From NCBI GenBank assembly GCA_022563215.1, contig JADFNT010000014.1:1-14242 (forward strand): DNA of 14,242 bases. The letters run 5' to 3'. The DNA is from Pseudomonadota bacterium (GTDB taxonomy: Bacteria; Pseudomonadota; Alphaproteobacteria; Rhodospirillales; Casp-alpha2). The notes beneath the pieces were generated by a model. That model was not told the origin of the DNA. It did no database searches and saw only the letters and a program-made list of their open reading frames with translations. A program made the translations under genes and the position numbers. Positions 4,074 through 14,242 of the stretch are shown in pieces (within the stretch, counting starts at the first letter, position 1; every line of letters begins with the position of its first letter).

Positions 4074-5111
4074 TCAGGAATCCTCTTGATCGGTTTGGGT
4101 GTCATCCGCGGCGGACGGGTCCGGCGCGTCTTTGGGTGGTTTAGGTTGTTGCGGTTCCGCAGCATGGTCAAGCGGCTCCTGTGGCGGCGCCTCGGCCGGG
4201 GGATCAACCGTTTCTTCCGTGCTGGACTCCACTATAGCGTCCTCGGGCGCCGGTTCCACGTCCGCTGTTTCCGTTTCAGGCGCTTCCGCGCCGGTTTCGG
4301 CTTCAATATCGCCGTCCGATGAAACGGATGGCGCCGGGGCGGCGGGTTCCGGTTCAGGCGCTTCGGGGGCGGCCTCGGCCTCCTCCGTCTCGCCGGAGAG
4401 GTTGCGCTCGACGATTTCGTCGATTTTCTGCCACAACTCGGCGGAATCGCGCTTGGCGCCGCCGCCACTCCATTCGATTCGGCAGTCCCCAGGGGCGATG
4501 TCTTCGCCCGCCGTTACCTTAACCTCGCCCTTGAAACCGGCCTGGGTTTTCAAGGCTTCTATGCGTTCTTCGAAAGGGGCCAGAAGATCGGAATTGAGGT
4601 AAAGGGTAACAAAGGGTTCATCGAGAAGGTGCTCCATGGTTTCGACGACCATTCTTTCGACTTCGCCAAGGGCATTTTTATCATTGAGAGCGGGAAAGAT
4701 CTTGCGGGCGATGCCGACGGCGACGGATATGGCGCTGTCGAGAATCGCGGCGTCGGCGGTTTCCTTGGCCTTAAACAGGTCACTGAACTTCTCGCCCAGT
4801 TGCCCCATGACCGCCAGAATATCCCGCTCCGTCGCTTCGGCGGCCTCGCGGATTCCTTCTTCCTTGCCGGCGGCGAAGCCCTCTTCGCGCGCGGCGTTAA
4901 CTTCTTCCTCGCTGAAGGTGGGAACCACCTCTTCCGGCTCTTCCTCTTTCTCGTCCTCTTCGTGTTCCTGCTCCTCGACGACTTCCGGCATTACGTCGTC
5001 ATCGAAGGATTTTTCAAAGAGGAATTTCCGTACTTCGATCATCGGTGATTGGTCTTTGGCGCTATTCCCATTCTGTGTATCGGCGTTCATTGATTCTTCG
5101 CTTGTTTCCAT
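4074..5111 (-). CDS. fliH: FliH-like flagellar export ATPase regulator with long acidic tail
   Basis: FliH binds and restrains the export ATPase FliI and links it to FliN. The call rests on position between fliG and fliN and on domain layout. An acidic, Glu-rich region (37-70) leads to the GxxxGxxxG helix typical of FliH (G78, G82, G86 in REEGFAAGKEEGIREA), then a FliH/YscL-like alpha-beta domain to about residue 238, ending at an ELWQKIDEIVERNL helix. The remaining 105 residues are almost all Glu, Ala, Pro, Asp, Thr and Ser in EPE/EAP-like runs, so they are probably disordered. Ordinary FliH proteins are about 220-240 residues, whereas this one has 345. The start at 5111 has only a weak ribosome binding site; a second ATG at 5090 is possible. 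In Caulobacter the gene in this position is called flbE. Confidence 0.85.
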   Translation of the reverse strand: METSEESMNADTQNGNSAKDQSPMIEVRKFLFEKSFDDDVMPEVVEEQEHEEDEKEEEPEEVVPTFSEEEVNAAREEGFAAGKEEGIREAAEATERDILAVMGQLGEKFSDLFKAKETADAAILDSAISVAVGIARKIFPALNDKNALGEVERMVVETMEHLLDEPFVTLYLNSDLLAPFEERIEALKTQAGFKGEVKVTAGEDIAPGDCRIEWSGGGAKRDSAELWQKIDEIVERNLSGETEEAEAAPEAPEPEPAAPAPSVSSDGDIEAETGAEAPETETADVEPAPEDAIVESSTEETVDPPAEAPPQEPLDHAAEPQQPKPPKDAPDPSAADDTQTDQEDS

Positions 5112-6238: not shown

Positions 6239-6310
6239 CGCTAAAACCGCTAAACATTAACCTTTATTCGTTAACTGAATATTACAAATAAGCGGTTACG
6301 AGTGCTACTC
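6239..6310. promoter_or_regulatory. Divergent AT-rich control region with nested repeats
   Basis: This AT-rich island separates fliG (minus) from the exported-protein gene (plus). It contains a direct repeat CGCTAAA (6239-6245 and 6248-6254), an inverted pair AACCGCT (6245-6251) and AGCGGTT (6291-6297), an inner inverted pair TTAAC (6257-6261) and GTTAA (6270-6274), and a short palindrome GAGT-GCT-ACTC (6300-6310). A plus-strand sigma-70-like promoter is possible (TTACAA about 18 bases before TACTCT with an upstream TG), but the match is weak. It should hold promoters for both directions; which protein binds is unknown. Confidence 0.4.
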
Positions 6311-6350: not shown

Positions 6351-7487
6351 ATGCGCTGGAGACCGGCGGCGACAGGTTTGGCGGCGGGGTTGATCGTCTT
6401 CAACGGGTTAACTTTTTCTCCGCTTGCGGCGGGCGAAACGGTTCTCGCCCAATCCACCCCATCCCAACAACAAGCCCCAAGATTGCCTGGAAAAAGAAAG
6501 CTTGGCGTTTCGAACCAGGTGCAGACGTATCTGCATCCGGTCCGCAAGTTCACCCTGGCCATTCCGCCGGGCATGGAAGTATTCGAACGCGGTGAAACGG
6601 TTCAGGTTTCAATCCGGTCGCGCCAGGGATACATGATCAACGTCCAGACGGGTGACGCCAAGCCCAAGGTGAGCTTGGCACAGATGACGGCCAAGCTTGA
6701 AGCGCAATACCTGGGGCCCGGCAAGCCGTGGTCACAGAAAACCAGTCAGCGAACCTTGAGCGTTGCCGGCCTTGCCGCTAACGAGGTCATTTATGAGGGC
6801 GCCGGAACCCGGGTGAGAGTGGTCATTGCGCGGGGGCAAAAGTCAGACTTCGTTTTCATGTTTTTCGCTCCCCGGGGGGCGTATGAATCCCTGGCGTCGA
6901 AATTCGATTGGATATTGGCCAATTTCCAGCCCAATCCGGCCGAACGGCTAACCGCGGCGGGTGGCGGTCCATCGCCGGGGGCGGGGGCAAAGACGGGCGT
7001 TCCGCCGAAGCGTTTTGCCGAACCCGGGTACGGGTATTCGATCCAGTATCCCGGCGATTGGGTGGTCGCCCTGTCTTCGGCCAATACCGCCACCTTCAGC
7101 GGCAAGAAGGGCACCGATGCCTTCCACGCCATCGTCAGCATCCAAAACGTCAAGCCGCCGGAGGCGAAAACCCCGGCCCAGGCCGCCGTTAGGGCTTTGG
7201 CGGACTTGAAGGCCTCGTTGTCGCGGGAAGCCTCTAATGTTGTCTTTATCGGCGAACAGCCGCTGACCTATAAGAACGAGAATCTCAGTCTCGAAGGCCG
7301 GCAAATAGTCGTCACCTATACCTTTGCCGGCGAACGCTTCCGCAAATGGGCGTTGGTGGTGCCCCGGCCATCCGGCACGGTGGCCCATATCTGGTCCTAC
7401 ACGGCGCCGGATTCGCGATTTAGGACCTTCCGTCCGTTTGCCGACGCCATGCTCAAATCCTGGACCATCCGTCCCGGGAACGGTTAA
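6351..7487 (+). CDS. Exported protein with two PsbP-like units
   Basis: This 378-residue protein begins with a probable Sec signal peptide: MRWR, then a hydrophobic core to about residue 25, with possible cleavage near LAAG-E. After a Gln/Pro-rich linker there are two similar units. Unit 1 (about 60-195) has KFTLAIPPGMEV and ends FDWILANFQP. Unit 2 (about 225-373) has YGYSIQYPGDWVV and ends FADAMLKSWTI. A Gly/Pro/Ala-rich linker separates them. The pattern of an aromatic residue, a Pro-Gly-x-W/M turn and a final amphipathic helix is that of PsbP/DUF1795-like domains, which bind ligands or partner proteins in the periplasm. This assignment is by eye. The start has AGGAGG (6334-6339) eleven bases upstream. 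The stop overlaps the next start (TAATG). The function is unknown. Confidence 0.75.
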   Translation: MRWRPAATGLAAGLIVFNGLTFSPLAAGETVLAQSTPSQQQAPRLPGKRKLGVSNQVQTYLHPVRKFTLAIPPGMEVFERGETVQVSIRSRQGYMINVQTGDAKPKVSLAQMTAKLEAQYLGPGKPWSQKTSQRTLSVAGLAANEVIYEGAGTRVRVVIARGQKSDFVFMFFAPRGAYESLASKFDWILANFQPNPAERLTAAGGGPSPGAGAKTGVPPKRFAEPGYGYSIQYPGDWVVALSSANTATFSGKKGTDAFHAIVSIQNVKPPEAKTPAQAAVRALADLKASLSREASNVVFIGEQPLTYKNENLSLEGRQIVVTYTFAGERFRKWALVVPRPSGTVAHIWSYTAPDSRFRTFRPFADAMLKSWTIRPGNG

Positions 7488-8281
7488 TGCCACGGGTCGC
7501 TTATTTTGCCGCGGTGTTTCTTTGGGCCGCCGCCGTCGGACCGTTACCTTTAAAGGCGGCGGAAACCAAGGGATCCCTGTCCTTGGATGAACTGGTCGAA
7601 TATTTCGATTCCATTGTTTTCCAATCGGAAATTAAGGACGTTCAGCCCTCCCGGGTGGTCAAGAAATGGACCCAGCCCTTGCGCGTGGCGATCCGTTCCT
7701 TCGAGGAGGTTTTAATCGAAAAGGACGGGCGCGAGATACTTCGGTTGAAGCAGGTGAAGGTCAGAAAAACCCACTTGAAGTTCATCAAGAAGCACCTCAA
7801 CAGCCTGATCAAGGCGACGAAACTGAAGACCGAAGACTCCAAAAAGACCGGCGAGCCGCCCAATTTCATGATTAATTTCGTCCCCCGCCGGCAGATGGGC
7901 AATCCCTATCTGGCTAAGGCCAATCCGAAGCTGCTGAGAAGGTTGGCGTCGGAAGGCGGGTGTTACTTTCTGGTTTGGGCCGACGGCACCACCGGCAAGA
8001 TCAAAAACGCCATTATCGTGGTTAATTCAGAACGTTTACTAATTAGGATAAACCATTGTTTATTAGAGGAAATGACCCAGGCTCTGGGGCTGCCAAATGA
8101 CAACAACAGGATCGAGAAATCGATCTTTTCCGACCGCAGCCGCCGCACCGATTTGACCCGCACCGACCTGATTGTCCTGAAGACCCTTTATGATCCCAGG
8201 ATGAAGGTCGGCCTGGTCCGCGCGGAGGCGATGGCGGTGGCCCGCGAGATCATCCGCGACCTGGACGCCGCCTTGCCCTGA
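7487..8281 (+). CDS. DUF2927 family exported protein
   Basis: The 264-residue protein has a short signal peptide (hydrophobic residues 5-20, likely cleavage after LKAA near residue 25) and should be periplasmic or surface-exposed. The C-terminal half fits DUF2927: GNPYLAKANPKLLRRL (138-153), a Cys at 159 followed by FLVWAD, INHCLLEEMTQALGLPND (188-205), SIFSD (212-216) and LYDPRMKVGL (234-243). C159 and C191 could form a disulfide bond. The HCLLEE helix loosely resembles a metallopeptidase helix, but no HExxH is present, so no enzyme activity is claimed. The start overlaps the previous stop by one base, implying translational coupling and a shared role with the PsbP-like protein. The family has no established function that I know of. 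Confidence 0.8.
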   Translation: MPRVAYFAAVFLWAAAVGPLPLKAAETKGSLSLDELVEYFDSIVFQSEIKDVQPSRVVKKWTQPLRVAIRSFEEVLIEKDGREILRLKQVKVRKTHLKFIKKHLNSLIKATKLKTEDSKKTGEPPNFMINFVPRRQMGNPYLAKANPKLLRRLASEGGCYFLVWADGTTGKIKNAIIVVNSERLLIRINHCLLEEMTQALGLPNDNNRIEKSIFSDRSRRTDLTRTDLIVLKTLYDPRMKVGLVRAEAMAVAREIIRDLDAALP

Positions 8282-8303
8282 AACCGTGGACACGTCCTTG
8301 AAT

Positions 8304-8323
8304 CGGCGGACTTTTTACCGCCG
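8304..8323 (+). other. Stem-loop after the DUF2927 gene
   Basis: CGGCGG (8304-8309) pairs with CCGCCG (8318-8323) around an eight-base loop that holds the T run. No T run follows the stem, so it is not a standard intrinsic terminator. It may still mark the end of the upstream two-gene transcript. Confidence 0.25.
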
Positions 8324-8341
8324 CGCTAAGGAAATCTTAAT

Positions 8342-8347
8342 TATACT
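8342..8347 (+). promoter_or_regulatory. Candidate -10 box for the secretion operon
   Basis: TATACT matches five of six bases of the sigma-70 -10 consensus in a short AT-rich stretch about 120 bases before the first ABC gene. No good -35 box lies 16-18 bases upstream, so the call is tentative. Confidence 0.3.
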
Positions 8348-8466
8348 TTTCTAGCCCTATCCAGGGGGCCTCACCAGGGGACCCCGCCAAGGGATCTCGG
8401 GGGAAGGCGCCTCAAGGGTGCGTTCCCGCCCGGGAATTGCATATCGCGGCGGCTGGGAACGTGCGC

Positions 8467-10236
8467 ATGTTCAATCGCAAAGCCAAGGAATACCCGATCG
8501 GCCAACAGCCCCTGGGTACTGTTGCCTTCATGCCCGGCGGCGTTTTCGATATGGCCGTGGCGTCGGTTTTCCTCGGTATCCTGGGGCTGGCCCTGCCGCT
8601 GTCGTTGTTGCAGGTTTTCGACCATGTCATCCCGGAACGTGACCACGGCGCCTTGGTTTGGCTGATCATCGGCATCGGCAGCGCCCTGGTGCTGGAGGCC
8701 CTGTTACGCGTCGGCCGTTCCTATGTCGGCGGCTGGATGGGCGCCCGGTTCGAACACATGACAAGCTGCAATGCCCTGGGCCGGCTGCTGCACACCAATA
8801 TCATCGATTTTGAAAAACTGGGCGCCGGAGCCTATATGGAACGCCTGAACGCCCTGGGGGCGCTCAGGAAATTTTATTCCGGGCCGGCGGCGAACGCGAT
8901 TTTCGATCTTCCGTTCGTGGTTTTTTATCTCGGTGTCATCGCCTATCTGGCCGGGCCCCTGGTTCTTGTTCCGGTGGTTTTGATCGTCCTGTTCTTTGCC
9001 GCCGGATGGGTCTGGGGCCGGCTCGAGAAGGTGTTGGAAGGGCGGATGCAAGCCGATGACCGGCGGCTGGGGTTCATCCTCGAAGTCTTAGGCGGCATTC
9101 ACACGGTCAAGGGATTCGGCATGGAAGAACAAATGCAGCGCCGTTATGAGCGGCTGCAGGAAACCTCGGCCGAGGCCAATTACCGGTTGGCCCGCCACCA
9201 GGGGTTCGTGCAAAGCCTGGGCGCTTTTTTCTCCCTCCTCGTTGTCTTATGCGTTGCCGGTTTCGGGGCTTTCCAGGTTAACGACGCCACCCTGACCGTT
9301 GGCGGCCTGTTGGCTTCGATCGTTTTGGCGGGACGCGCCGTTCAGCCACTGGAAACCGTCGCCGGGCTGTGGACCCGCTTTCAAGCCGCGCGGCTGGCCC
9401 GTGACCGGCTGTCGGTGATTTTCGACATGCCGGTGGAAAAGCCGACGGGGCTTTTGGAACTGCCAACCATTGAGGGCGCCCTTGATTTTAAGAACCTGAG
9501 CTTCAGTTACGGCAAGGGCAAGGACGGCGAGGATCTGCCGCCGATCTTTCAAAACGTCACCCTGCGCATCGAGCCGGGGCAAACCGTCGGCATTGTCGGT
9601 CCCAGCGCCAGCGGCAAAACGACTCTGTTGTACCTAATGATGGGGGTATTGACGCCCAACCACGGGACCGCGCGCATCGACGGCTACGATCTTCGCGAGT
9701 GCGATCCTGCCAACGTTCGCCATCAGATCGCCTACCTGCCGCAGGAAGCGGTGATGTTCCACGGCACGATCCTGGAAAACCTGACCATGTTCCGCGACGA
9801 CCTCGCCAACGACGCCCTGGATATCGGCAAGCTTTTGGGATTGGACAATGTGATCGCCAGTCTGCCCCTGGGCTATGACATGATCATCGGCGAGGGGGCG
9901 GAGGACAAAATACCGCGCGGTACCCGCCAGCGGATCGCCATCGCCCGGGCGCTGGTCGATAAACCCCGGGTGCTTTTGTTCGACGAGGCCAATTCCTTCA
10001 TCGACGGGGCCGGTGACGCCCTGTTGAATGACCTGTTGATGCGCCTGAAGGGCCGGGTGACGCTGATCCTGGTCACCCAACGGCCATCGATGCTCAGGCT
10101 TTCCGACCGGGTCTTCGAAATCCGCGGCGACACCTTGTTCGAACACGATCTTCAAGCCGGCAAAGCGGGGACGCCCGCGGATCAGACCGCGGATCAAACC
10201 GCGGATCAAACCGCCTTGGCCGAGGAGGCGACATGA
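8467..10236 (+). CDS. Type I secretion-like ABC half-transporter with degenerate ATPase motifs
   Basis: This 589-residue protein has one ABC transmembrane domain (about 25-310) and one nucleotide-binding domain (about 335-560), as in type I secretion exporters. It has no N-terminal peptidase-like domain. Walker A is GPSASGKTT (378-386), the Q-loop Gln is 426 and Walker B is VLLFDE (502-507), with E507 in place as the catalytic base. The signature, normally LSGGQ, reads IPRGT (482-486), still followed by RQRIAIARAL. The H-loop His is replaced by Gln538 (VTQRPS). These changes suggest it works as one half of a heterodimer with the next gene. The C-terminus carries three ADQT repeats. The ATG at 8467 is chosen over an in-frame TTG at 8437 because the family match begins soon after and GGGA precedes it; the start is uncertain. 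The stop overlaps the next start. Confidence 0.9.
   Translation: MFNRKAKEYPIGQQPLGTVAFMPGGVFDMAVASVFLGILGLALPLSLLQVFDHVIPERDHGALVWLIIGIGSALVLEALLRVGRSYVGGWMGARFEHMTSCNALGRLLHTNIIDFEKLGAGAYMERLNALGALRKFYSGPAANAIFDLPFVVFYLGVIAYLAGPLVLVPVVLIVLFFAAGWVWGRLEKVLEGRMQADDRRLGFILEVLGGIHTVKGFGMEEQMQRRYERLQETSAEANYRLARHQGFVQSLGAFFSLLVVLCVAGFGAFQVNDATLTVGGLLASIVLAGRAVQPLETVAGLWTRFQAARLARDRLSVIFDMPVEKPTGLLELPTIEGALDFKNLSFSYGKGKDGEDLPPIFQNVTLRIEPGQTVGIVGPSASGKTTLLYLMMGVLTPNHGTARIDGYDLRECDPANVRHQIAYLPQEAVMFHGTILENLTMFRDDLANDALDIGKLLGLDNVIASLPLGYDMIIGEGAEDKIPRGTRQRIAIARALVDKPRVLLFDEANSFIDGAGDALLNDLLMRLKGRVTLILVTQRPSMLRLSDRVFEIRGDTLFEHDLQAGKAGTPADQTADQTADQTALAEEAT
10177..10212 (+). repeat. Three 12-bp tandem repeats (ADQT)
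   Basis: Three in-frame copies of GCGGATCARACC encode ADQT-ADQT-ADQT near the C-terminus of the first ABC protein. The first copy differs from the others by one silent base (CAG versus CAA). Confidence 0.95.
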
Positions 10237-12503
10237 ACGCCGTTCCTCCCCTTGGTGAAATCCCCGGTGAAGCCTTGGCCGCGCCGCCGGCGGGCCCGGC
10301 GGTTTTGTCGGGATCGCCGTTTTCCCTGCCCGTGGCCGCCGGCGATGGGGCATCCCACGGGGCCCTGGCCGGGATCGCCCGGCCCAACGATTTGTCCGCC
10401 TCCCTGCTGCCGTTGCTGGAAACATTGGGCTGGCAGGGGGATCCGCAACAGGTGGCCGAGGCCCTGCCGCATTTCCAGGAAAGCTTCGACATTACCGCGC
10501 TACGCAACGTTCTGGCGGCAATGGGCTACCAAAGCGATGCCGAAAAGACGGCCCTGAATGATATCGTTGCCGATATGGTGCCGTGCCTGTTTCTGCCCGA
10601 GGGCCGCGACGCCCTGGTGGTGGCGGGTCTGGATGCGGACAACGTCGAAGCCTTCGACACGGCCCAGGGACGCTATGTCAGCCTGCCCCGGGAGGCTTGG
10701 ACGGGCACGGCCTACGTTTTTAGCCCCCTTGACGGCGGCGCCCAGGCCTCCGTTGGCGAGGGGGGGGACTGGTTAGGGGCCGTCGTCGAACGGTTCAAGG
10801 GGCTGGCCTTTCTGGCCCTCGGCATAACTTTTCTTCTCAACCTGCTGGCGTTGGCGTTGCCGTTGTTCGTGATGGCGGTTTACGACCAAGCCATCGCCGC
10901 CGGCTCGGTCCAGGCCATGGCCTATCTGGCCATCGGCGCCGGCATCGCGGTTATTTCCGATCTGGTCCTGAGGACCCTGCGTTTCGGTATCTTCTCATTC
11001 GTCGGCGCCCGGCTCGACAACATCGTCGGCATCGAGGTGTTCCGCAAGATCCTGCAATTGCCGGCGGCGATGATCGAACGCGCCGCCATCGGCGCCCAGG
11101 CATCGCGGATCAAGGACTTCGAAACGATGCGCGAATTCCTCACCGGCCCCGCGGCGCCGGTGTTGTTTGAGCTTCCCTTCGTTGTCGTTTTCATTGCCAT
11201 GGTCGCCTATCTGGGCGGGGCCATCGCCTTTGTGCCCATCGTCATACTGGCCCTGGTCGGCGGGCTTGGCCTTGCGGCCATGTCCAAGATCGGCGAGATC
11301 GCGGCCAAGGATTCAGAGGCGGCGGCGAAAAAGCAGGAACTAACCATCGAAATCCTGGGCGGCATGCGGGCGATAAAATATTGCGGCGCCGAGGCCACCT
11401 GGCTTGGGCGTTACCGCCAATTGTCGGCCGACGCCGCGCTCCGGGGTTTTTATTTGGCGCAATTCACCTCCTTGCTGGAAACGGTTTCGTACGTGGTGAT
11501 GGTCGCCTCCGGGTTCGCCACCGTGGCCATTGGGGCTTTCCGGGTCGAGGCCGGCGATATGTCCTATGGCGCCCTGGTGGCGTGCATGATCCTCGTCTGG
11601 CGGGCGCTGGCGCCATTGCAGACCGGGCTGGTTTCGCTGACCCGGGTTACCCAGGTTGAATCCGGCGTCGATCACCTCAATGATCTGATGCGGATCGAAA
11701 CCACACATGAAAAGACGGCCAAACCTGCCGTGCGGGGACTGTCCGGTAAAGAGCCCGATAAAAAGATCGAAGGCCGGATCACCTTTACCAACGTGACCAT
11801 GCAATACGAGGCGGATTCGCTGCCGGCCCTCGATGGCGCCAATTTCGACATCAAAAGCGGAAAGATCATCGCCGTCCTCGGCTCCAACGGGGCCGGCAAA
11901 TCGACGATGTTCAAATTGCTGGCCGGGCTGTACCAAGCGACCTCTGGAAGCGTCCGGATCGACGGCCGGGACGTCCGCGACATTCCGCCGGCGGAGCTTC
12001 GCCAAGCGGTCGCCTACGTGCCCCAAACGCCGCAGTTTTTCTACGGCACCATCGCCCAGAACCTGCGTCTGGCCCATCCCACCGCCACCGACGACGACCT
12101 GCGCTGGGCGGTGCGTCAGGCAGGGGCGCTGGAGGATATCGAAGCCCTGGAACAAGGCTCTGGCGAATGGAAACGCACGGGCTTCGATGTCCGGCTCGGA
12201 GACCGTGGTTCCGGGCAGGTGTCGCCCGGCCTGTTGCAACGCCTGAACCTGGCCCGTGGTTACCTGAAACGGGCGCCGATCATGTTGTTGGACGAACCGG
12301 GCAACGGCCTGGACCAGAAAGGCGATCAAGCCCTGATGCAGGCGATATCGAACATGCGCGGGGAAAAAACCGTTTTCATCGTCACCCACCGGCCCAGCCA
12401 CCTGAAAATGGCGGACAGGATCATTTGGCTTGAATACGGCAGTGTCCGGTCCGTTGGCCGGCCGAAGGTGGTGATGCCGAAAACGCCGGGGAATTTCCTA
12501 TGA
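10233..12503 (+). CDS. Type I secretion-like ABC transporter with peptidase-like N-terminal domain
   Basis: The protein has 756 residues. A 50-residue Ala/Pro/Gly-rich leader is followed by a domain (about 52-165) that resembles the C39-peptidase-like domain of RTX and adhesin exporters. It lacks the catalytic Cys and His; its only Cys, 118, is late in the domain. The transmembrane domain covers about 190-475 and the nucleotide-binding domain about 513-740. Walker A is GSNGAGKST (550-558), the Q-loop Gln is 598, Walker B is IMLLDE (683-688) and the H-loop His is 719. The signature reads VSPGL (663-667) in place of LSGGQ, keeping Ser and the second Gly. It overlaps the upstream ABC gene and downstream HlyD gene by ATGA, with GGAGG (10224-10228) before the start. 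It most likely pairs with the first ABC protein. Confidence 0.92.
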   Translation: MNAVPPLGEIPGEALAAPPAGPAVLSGSPFSLPVAAGDGASHGALAGIARPNDLSASLLPLLETLGWQGDPQQVAEALPHFQESFDITALRNVLAAMGYQSDAEKTALNDIVADMVPCLFLPEGRDALVVAGLDADNVEAFDTAQGRYVSLPREAWTGTAYVFSPLDGGAQASVGEGGDWLGAVVERFKGLAFLALGITFLLNLLALALPLFVMAVYDQAIAAGSVQAMAYLAIGAGIAVISDLVLRTLRFGIFSFVGARLDNIVGIEVFRKILQLPAAMIERAAIGAQASRIKDFETMREFLTGPAAPVLFELPFVVVFIAMVAYLGGAIAFVPIVILALVGGLGLAAMSKIGEIAAKDSEAAAKKQELTIEILGGMRAIKYCGAEATWLGRYRQLSADAALRGFYLAQFTSLLETVSYVVMVASGFATVAIGAFRVEAGDMSYGALVACMILVWRALAPLQTGLVSLTRVTQVESGVDHLNDLMRIETTHEKTAKPAVRGLSGKEPDKKIEGRITFTNVTMQYEADSLPALDGANFDIKSGKIIAVLGSNGAGKSTMFKLLAGLYQATSGSVRIDGRDVRDIPPAELRQAVAYVPQTPQFFYGTIAQNLRLAHPTATDDDLRWAVRQAGALEDIEALEQGSGEWKRTGFDVRLGDRGSGQVSPGLLQRLNLARGYLKRAPIMLLDEPGNGLDQKGDQALMQAISNMRGEKTVFIVTHRPSHLKMADRIIWLEYGSVRSVGRPKVVMPKTPGNFL

Positions 12504-14242
12504 GCGACATGACACCCGACACCGGTATTGCCGAACACCCGGGACTTTCCCGGGGCGCCCGTTCGGCAAGGGTCTTGGCGCAGTCCGTGGCCCTGGCCGA
12601 AGAGGGTGGCCCCAAACTAGGCAAGAAAGCCGCGGCCACGTGCGCCGTGACGGTCTTGGCTCTTACCGTCTGGGCGGGTTTTATCGGTATCGATGACGTG
12701 ACAATAGCCGCTGGCCGGGTCATCCCTTCGGGAGAGCCCCAAATGGTTCGCCATCAGGACGGCGGAACGGTCTCGGAAATCCTGGTCAGCGACGGCGAAA
12801 TCGTCGAGGAGGGGCAAACCCTGATCCGTTTCGATTCCCGTGAAGCCCAAAGCGCGCTTGACAGGATTCAGGTCCAGCGAGTCGAAGTTGGCTTGCTGGC
12901 GGCACAGTTAAGGGCGCTGGGCCGAGGCGGCGAGCCGGATTTCTCCTTCGTTCAGGCAAGCTATCGGCCTTATGTGGAAAAAGAGCGTCTTATCTTTGCC
13001 GCCCTCAAGGAACTGATGGAAAAGCGCCGCCGTGTCCTGGAAGCCAAAGTCACGGACACGCAGGCGAAAATGGACAGCATCGCCAAGCAGGAAATAAAGC
13101 TGTCCAAGGATGCCGATATCCTGGAAGAGGAGCTGTTGCTGCGCGAGGACCTGTTCAAAAAAGGACTGACGCCCAAGGACGTTTACGCCAAAACCAAGCG
13201 CCAGGTCGACAAGGCGTACAGGGACCTGGCTAATTTGGCCGACACCCGTCAGGTCACCGGCAAGGCCCTGGGGGAAGCCAAAAACCGGTATCAGGCCCTT
13301 GAACCCCGTCTCAAGGAAAGGGCGCTGGATGAATTGGCGATCATCACCGAACGATTGGACGCCATCAATCAGTCCCTGGAGGGCCTGAACGAACGAATGG
13401 ACCGTCTGGATGTTACCGCCCCGGTCAGGGGGGTCGTTCAAGGGGCCCAAGTCCACACTCTGGGCGCCGCCGTGGCGCCGGGCAAGGTGGTGGTTGCAAT
13501 CATTCCCCTTGGCGGCGACGCGGTCGTCGAGGCCAGGATCGCCGCCGCCGATATCGACCGGGTCCACGCCGGACAGCCGGTGACCGTCAACGTCAAGGCC
13601 GCCGGGTTTTCCCGTTACGGCGCCTTGAAAGGGACATTAAAGGAAATTTCTTCGTCGACCTTCGTCGACGGCGACGGGGAGCCCTATTACAAGGGGATCA
13701 TCGCCCTGGAGCGGGATTTCGTCGGCCGCGGAGAGAACAAGAAGCGCTTGATGCCGGGGATGGCCGTCGAGGCGCGGGTCAAGACCGGCGACTTCATCAC
13801 GCGCTTGAATTTCGTCTCGCAGAATGCGATTCGAGTGGAGTTTTCTCACTTTGGAGCGCGCCGACCACTGGAAGTACAATTTATTCCGGAAGACGTAGTG
13901 AATAGGCTAATTCATAAGGGGTCACCACCTCACTTGCGCTTTGACACTATTGATCATGTCATGGATGACATTAAAGTAATCGGAGATCACTTCTTGGAGG
14001 TCTCTGAGCATATCAAGCGCGGTGGAAAATTGGCACCTTGTGGGTGGAGCCATATTGAAATAGCTTTGGCTGGATTTCTACGACAGCAAGATTCACCGAA
14101 ATGGAGTAGCTGGAACAAGCTAGATTTTCTTGGTAAAAGAGAAATTGATCTCATGCTGGAACATGAGAAAATAGCTATTGAAGTACAAGGAGACTATTGG
14201 CACACTCTTCCGGGCGCTAAAGAAAGAGACGAGAAAAAGCGT
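12500..14242 (+). CDS. HlyD-family secretion adaptor running in frame into a nuclease-like C-terminus (open at window end)
   Basis: HlyD-type adaptors bridge the inner-membrane ABC exporter and an outer-membrane TolC-type channel. The start ATG at 12500 overlaps the upstream ABC stop. Residues 44-62 form the single membrane helix. The two halves of the lipoyl-like domain are at 82-112 (RHQDGGTVSEILVSDGEIV) and 304-338 (DVTAPVRGVVQG). Between them lies a coiled coil (about 115-300). The beta-barrel part runs from 342 to 431, ending LMPGM-AVEARVKTGD. The family normally continues for about 25 residues with a conserved Leu/Pro-rich tail (YLLxP-like). Here D431 is instead followed by unrelated sequence of much lower GC, which stays open to the window end at residue 581. 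The adaptor is therefore either truncated by an insertion, fused to a nuclease, or joined to foreign sequence by assembly error. Confidence 0.85.
   Translation, partial: MSDMTPDTGIAEHPGLSRGARSARVLAQSVALAEEGGPKLGKKAAATCAVTVLALTVWAGFIGIDDVTIAAGRVIPSGEPQMVRHQDGGTVSEILVSDGEIVEEGQTLIRFDSREAQSALDRIQVQRVEVGLLAAQLRALGRGGEPDFSFVQASYRPYVEKERLIFAALKELMEKRRRVLEAKVTDTQAKMDSIAKQEIKLSKDADILEEELLLREDLFKKGLTPKDVYAKTKRQVDKAYRDLANLADTRQVTGKALGEAKNRYQALEPRLKERALDELAIITERLDAINQSLEGLNERMDRLDVTAPVRGVVQGAQVHTLGAAVAPGKVVVAIIPLGGDAVVEARIAAADIDRVHAGQPVTVNVKAAGFSRYGALKGTLKEISSSTFVDGDGEPYYKGIIALERDFVGRGENKKRLMPGMAVEARVKTGDFITRLNFVSQNAIRVEFSHFGARRPLEVQFIPEDVVNRLIHKGSPPHLRFDTIDHVMDDIKVIGDHFLEVSEHIKRGGKLAPCGWSHIEIALAGFLRQQDSPKWSSWNKLDFLGKREIDLMLEHEKIAIEVQGDYWHTLPGAKERDEKKR
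13793..14242 (+). other. AT-richer segment encoding a Vsr/DUF559-like PD-(D/E)XK nuclease (partial)
   Basis: Reading in the HlyD frame (residues 432-581), this segment has base and codon use unlike the rest of the window: the row starting at 13921 has 24 G/C of 60, versus 41 of 60 in the row starting at 13561. Its C-terminal half shows a recognisable nuclease core. An acidic residue lies in a helix (E519 in SHIEIALAGFL), followed by KREIDLML (D550), IAIEVQGDYWH (E561, Q563, H568) and a downstream D577 and Lys cluster. This E-D-E-x-Q-H-D order fits Vsr-like endonucleases, including the EDxHD homing endonucleases, and DUF559 proteins. The first 80 residues (432-515) are not recognised. The gene runs past the window, and its own natural start cannot be placed. 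Confidence 0.6.

Follow-up and report, generated by a model that had tools for sequence, protein, structure and literature searches.

Does an open reading frame that begins as a HlyD-type periplasmic adaptor and runs on, without interruption, into a nuclease represent a real gene, or was it put together after the DNA had left the cell? The window analyzed here, 14,242 nucleotides in length, is the entire contig C142, the last base of which (14242) is the contig end. It belongs to a bin whose 397 contigs add up to 2.1 Mb, with a completeness of 74% and a contamination of 3.5%. The reading frame in question (12500-14242) encodes 581 amino acids, is still open at the window's last base and follows two ORFs of a type I secretion cluster, which we take to be ABC transporters from inspection of their translations and the ABC ATPase motifs in them. 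The features needed for the argument are listed below.

8437-10236, second ABC transporter ORF of the type I secretion cluster, from the ORF list (presumed name)
10233..12503, plus strand, ABC transporter of the same cluster, from the ORF list (presumed name)
12500..13788, plus strand, genuine part of a HlyD-type periplasmic adaptor (residues 1-430), from TIGR01843 and relatives
13788..13790, no strand, join between hlyD and foreign sequence, from base-by-base comparison with the relatives L004 and L005 and from the nuclease alignment starting at D431
13790..14242, plus strand, internal piece of a nuclease (residues 71-221 of 265), from 90% identity to protein P0001

The model for type I HlyD proteins, TIGR01843, aligns with residues 44-431 of the ORF over its positions 7-400 of 422 (E 1.1e-87), and the score of 294.8 bits, above the curated cut-off of 208.65, assigns the protein to the HlyD adaptors. 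Model positions 401-422 are unmatched, that is the HlyD C-terminus is incomplete. The close relatives L004 (JADFMB010000046.1) and L005 (NZAZ01000080.1), both from a scan of public genome contigs, share 86-87% protein identity with the HlyD part. At the nucleotide level, L005 matches window positions 8275-13788 at 91.7%, and blastn gives one match to L004 over 6537-13788 at 91.5%. In these relatives, hlyD continues for 15 more residues (STTLLGFLLDSIAGS, the L004 version, or STTLFGYLLGSIAGS) and then reaches its stop codon; as judged from these two closest relatives, the gene would lack its last 15 codons and the stop here. Orthologues of hlyD are present in seven of nine genus relatives (45-87% identity), each of them terminating 10-15 residues past the matched part; the remaining two contain only a distant hlyD paralogue (G001) or no match (G004). 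The stretch 12500..13788 is a genuine piece of hlyD, and the contig departs from this gene before its end. A second HlyD adaptor gene, 28% identical to the first, begins contig C105 (G000:C105:15-1181; L003/L006), and the type I secretion adaptors in the bin accordingly number at least two.

The position of the join can be fixed almost to the base. DNA similarity to L004 and L005 (approximately 92%) stops at 13788 in both, and in ungapped comparison the 60 bases that follow are 23% identical to each of them, which is chance level. Codon 430 specifies Gly and fits HlyD, whereas Arg is almost invariant at that site in the nuclease family. D431 (13790), on the other hand, corresponds to an Asp that never varies in this family; L004 and L005 have Ser there. 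Since Gly430 thus lies on the HlyD side and D431 on the nuclease side, the join leads in frame from the middle of one gene into the middle of another. The bases that could be assigned to either side probably number one or two at most, a count made from aligned sequence with the nuclease DNA upstream of the join unseen. The C-terminus of the L004 protein (STTLLGFLLDSIAGS) is absent from all six frames of 13701-14242, where the best agreement is 5 of 15 residues. The GC content amounts to 61.1% before the join and to 44.7% after it. None of 5000 base shuffles of the tail stayed open in the frame concerned; the frame is open because the tail is a real gene fragment.

These results bear on several points of the preliminary description, which had been made from the sequence alone. 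It had reported an abrupt in-frame exit from HlyD, a HlyD tail missing from all plus frames in a way that no simple frameshift accounts for, and a frame open for about 150 further codons; the comparisons confirm all three, the tail comprising 151 residues. The HlyD sequence, which it had followed up to D431, reaches Gly430, D431 itself being on the nuclease side. The GC drop, given there as 65-68% to 40%, is real and smaller than described.

What, then, is the foreign tail? Searched alone, it is 90% identical to P0001 over 151 of 151 residues, 77% identical to P0002 and 53% identical to P0003, all of which are stand-alone proteins of 265 residues; the length limits of the protein search with the whole ORF had excluded this family, and the tail-only search recovered it. 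The nuclease is therefore cut at both ends, its first 70 residues being removed by the join and its last 44 by the contig end. A profile search, which could return only proteins of about 146-464 amino acids, yielded 17 family proteins (P0001-P0017; 204-271 amino acids), all of them stand-alone. PF18741 (MTES_1575) scores 21.0 bits with the tail and 23.6-27.3 bits with P0001-P0003, in each case below the gathering cut-off of 38.2, and does not match the truncated P0004; it is precomputed in the protein database for five of the 17 members. DUF559 lies above its cut-off in P0003 (23.0 versus 20.6), and about the first 160-180 residues of four members tested gave no Pfam match at E 1. The predicted structure of P0001 (mean pLDDT 86.8) finds 1vsr, 1cw0 and 3r3p as its best Foldseek matches with probabilities of 0.97-1.00 but E values of 0.019-0.12, and none of its 284 matches reaches E 0.001; a sequence profile matches 3r3p at E 0.0032. 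P0001-P0017 present themselves as a family of stand-alone proteins, roughly 265 residues long, that carry a Vsr-like nuclease domain at the C-terminus, possibly an uncharacterized nuclease family.

The chromosome itself continues elsewhere in the same assembly. When the stretch that follows hlyD in L005 was searched in the bin, contig C84 was found. Its base 1 aligns with position 7390 of L005 and 7453 of L004, and the break in C142 corresponds to positions 7292 and 7289, respectively, which gives a gap of 97 bp by the spacing in L005 and of 163 bp by that in L004. C84 opens directly in chromosomal sequence, without the second edge of an insert. The 15 missing codons of the HlyD tail, which the preliminary description had suggested searching for in the assembly, were themselves not found and would lie in the unassembled gap before this contig. 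Further along C84, about 1.3 kb (L052:1900-3217) has no counterpart at the corresponding position of L004 and L005; its ORFs resemble membrane proteins on inspection, and it may possibly represent a real indel between species.

The end of C142 is not the only one of its kind. Six contigs were surveyed, a non-random set consisting of C142 as the window, C84, C180 and C349 from the continuation search, C105 for its hlyD paralogue and C141 as the next number. An end was counted as clean when the match to one or more relatives came within 3 bases of it. Eight of the 12 ends are clean (C142 left, C84 left, C180 both, C349 left, C105 both, C141 right), and in comparison with the genus relatives each of the other four passes abruptly, at a single base within a gene, into unmatched sequence. 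The comparison of C349, C105 and C141 covered all genus relatives except G004, eight in total, and unmatched there refers to the candidates scored, at most 37-41 per genome.

At the right end of C84, none of the nine genus relatives has a main match that extends beyond base 4682, which lies inside a gene named recG by inspection. The last 228 bases (L052:4683-4910) carry a piece with metallo-beta-lactamase fold on the minus strand (PF12706, 22.2 bits, below the cut-off of 27) and have one weak match of 46 bases elsewhere in G008 (E 1.4e-4). The true continuation of C84 is C180: the two overlap by 39 bases (95% identity) where the genuine part of C84 ends, and the entire length of C180 matches G001 and G008 at 93-94%. 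C349 departs from all eight relatives searched at base 6259-6262, inside a gene for an FtsJ-domain methyltransferase, which we assume to be TlyA-like; beyond the break (L135:6260-8686) lies a DUF2784 gene (PF10861, 108.4 bits, profile positions 1-94 of 109), and the GC content changes from 64.2% to 53.4%. In C141, 179 bases (L136:1-179) precede the match, which starts at 180-181 in four of the eight relatives and further in for the other four. The host gene is presumably M81/MlrC-like, and the foreign piece, for which no Pfam match was obtained, looks to us like a serine recombinase read antisense.

Taken together, we assign a probability of about 0.95 to the reading that the last 454 bases of C142 are a chimeric contig end and represent neither an insertion nor a fusion protein. 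The two parts are unrelated, both genes are cut, the chromosome continues on C84, and other contig ends of the bin behave alike. The contig would be genuine up to 13788, where part of a nuclease gene belonging to a different organism of the sample would have been attached, either via a chimeric read or by a wrong extension at a place where the assembly breaks. The true chromosome would lead through the last 15 codons of hlyD and the rest of the gap, about 97 bp (L005) or 163 bp (L004) in total, into C84. Such a join would have arisen in the library or during assembly, outside any living cell. Independent insertions, each cutting a gene and always at contig ends, appear much less probable than chimeras produced by the assembly or the library, since the host gene is cut each time and the foreign gene is cut as well where this is visible.

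Some points speak against a chimeric contig end. The sequence common to both sources at the join seems to be no longer than one or two bases, and a repeat or a shared k-mer therefore does not explain it. Furthermore, three of the four foreign joins, that of C142 and two others, continue in frame on the same strand; with equal chances for all frames and strands, three or more such joins in four have a probability of 0.016, and two or more in three one of 0.074 when only the joins not chosen by the reader are considered. This counts only weakly against a chimera. The weak 46-base match of the C84 end in G008 and the failure to find the donor organism are further points on this side. The Background of the GUNC publication (PMC8201837) describes chimeric contigs from misassembly as relatively rare and mis-binning as the larger source of error, and the rarity has to be counted against our reading. 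Another publication holds that k-mer assembly graphs may contain paths matching no real genome (PMC8172020).

The preliminary description had named insertion of a mobile nuclease gene, a real fusion and a chimeric contig join without ranking them. The last is now favored and the first two are disfavored because the nuclease starts in mid-gene, the chromosome lies on another contig, and three of the 11 other ends break alike. Among the alternatives, it is very unlikely that some members of the population really carry foreign DNA (a mobile nuclease gene, a prophage or an island) inserted in the 3' end of hlyD and that the strain mixture broke the assembly. Such an insertion would fit the lower GC content after the join, the fact that contigs break at this place and the nature of the encoded protein, which resembles Vsr and homing endonucleases: besides the sub-cut-off similarity to PF18741, the tail matches PHROG 3339 (homing endonuclease) at E 1.6e-4 and gives 58 weak matches to phage records (E 1 or below, with 1e-3 as the best value), among them several annotated as homing endonuclease. 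However, the 70 N-terminal residues of the nuclease are missing at the join, which therefore does not mark the edge of an intact element; an intact mobile element was rejected on this very ground, the cut at residue 71. Nor does the start of C84 show another insert edge, and the three further ends that break into unrelated genes are not accounted for.

The searches of phage, plasmid and viral records also argue against insertion of a mobile element. P0003, a full-length relative, has no match in phage and plasmid records. In viral contigs the tail, P0001 and P0003 find 25, 36 and 22 distant loci, respectively, with identities of 24-26% in the longer alignments and, within the nuclease motif, of at most about 61% (23 residues), and a search of these contigs with the family profile, using its N-terminal words, returned no match. 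PADLOC gave weak matches only (best E 0.0019). No further nuclease piece was found in the rest of the bin at E 10, and among 398 sampled genomes of the phylum the nuclease profile had a single match at E 1e-6, this contig. A donor organism was thus not found among phage and plasmid records, viral contigs and the 397 other sampled genomes of the phylum; by name, one of the 17 family members comes from a Zixibacteria metagenome genome and one from a 'bacterium'.

It is also very unlikely that, in this lineage, illegitimate recombination produced real joins into the genes for HlyD, RecG, the FtsJ/TlyA-like methyltransferase and the M81-like protein, three of them in frame, and that their presence in part of the population led to the contig breaks. 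A real HlyD-nuclease fusion protein created by illegitimate recombination is exceedingly improbable. The join is in frame and the frame remains open to the contig end, but none of 129 candidates of fusion size (320-1017 amino acids) contained a homologue of the tail at E 0.001, i.e. the arrangement did not recur in an independent genome. Moreover, hlyD has a short normal C-terminus in all seven genus orthologues, and the nuclease is stand-alone in 17 of 17 proteins within the search range of about 146-464 amino acids. One sense join in three is in frame by chance, a figure the preliminary description had taken as weak evidence for a fusion, and two other joins in this assembly are in frame as well. 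A frameshift or local sequencing error masking a normal HlyD tail has practically no probability, for it accounts for nothing beyond the abrupt loss of similarity and was rejected by the six-frame test, the tail being 90% identical to another protein family and 13789-14242 having no DNA match at E 1 in the compared stretches of the relatives, C84 and C180. An intein or intron was likewise rejected, as the foreign part aligns with the stand-alone family from its first residue as plain coding sequence and the hlyD reading does not resume within the window.

The hlyD-nuclease ORF is most likely an ordinary product of faulty assembly at a metagenome contig end and not a real feature, and recognizing it as such prevents a spurious HlyD-nuclease fusion from entering the record. 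The bin has several suspect contig ends (four of the 12 compared), and genes at contig ends need checking before use. Were the join real, it would constitute an unusual gene fusion, for which nothing speaks beyond the open frame.

Each half of the ORF resembles a known system in a different way. With other TIGR01843 adaptors the HlyD part shares the above-cut-off score, the match over residues 44-431 and the position after ABC transporter ORFs, and it differs in missing model positions 401-422 because the contig leaves the gene. The tail and its family share the C-terminal motif REID...IAIEVQGDYWH with Vsr-like nucleases (PF18741, DUF559, I-Bth0305I, E. coli Vsr), and Vsr and I-Bth0305I are the best matches to the fold predicted for P0001, with no E value below 0.019; unlike the known nucleases, the family scores below the PF18741 cut-off and has an N-terminal part of about 160-180 residues without Pfam match. 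As in the chimeric contigs of metagenome-assembled genomes, a term used in the GUNC publication (PMC8201837), fragments from different sources are joined at a contig end, composition and closest relatives change abruptly, and several cases occur in one bin. In contrast to such contigs, no shared repeat is apparent at the join in C142, and the cause may therefore be a chimeric molecule or read rather than a graph error.
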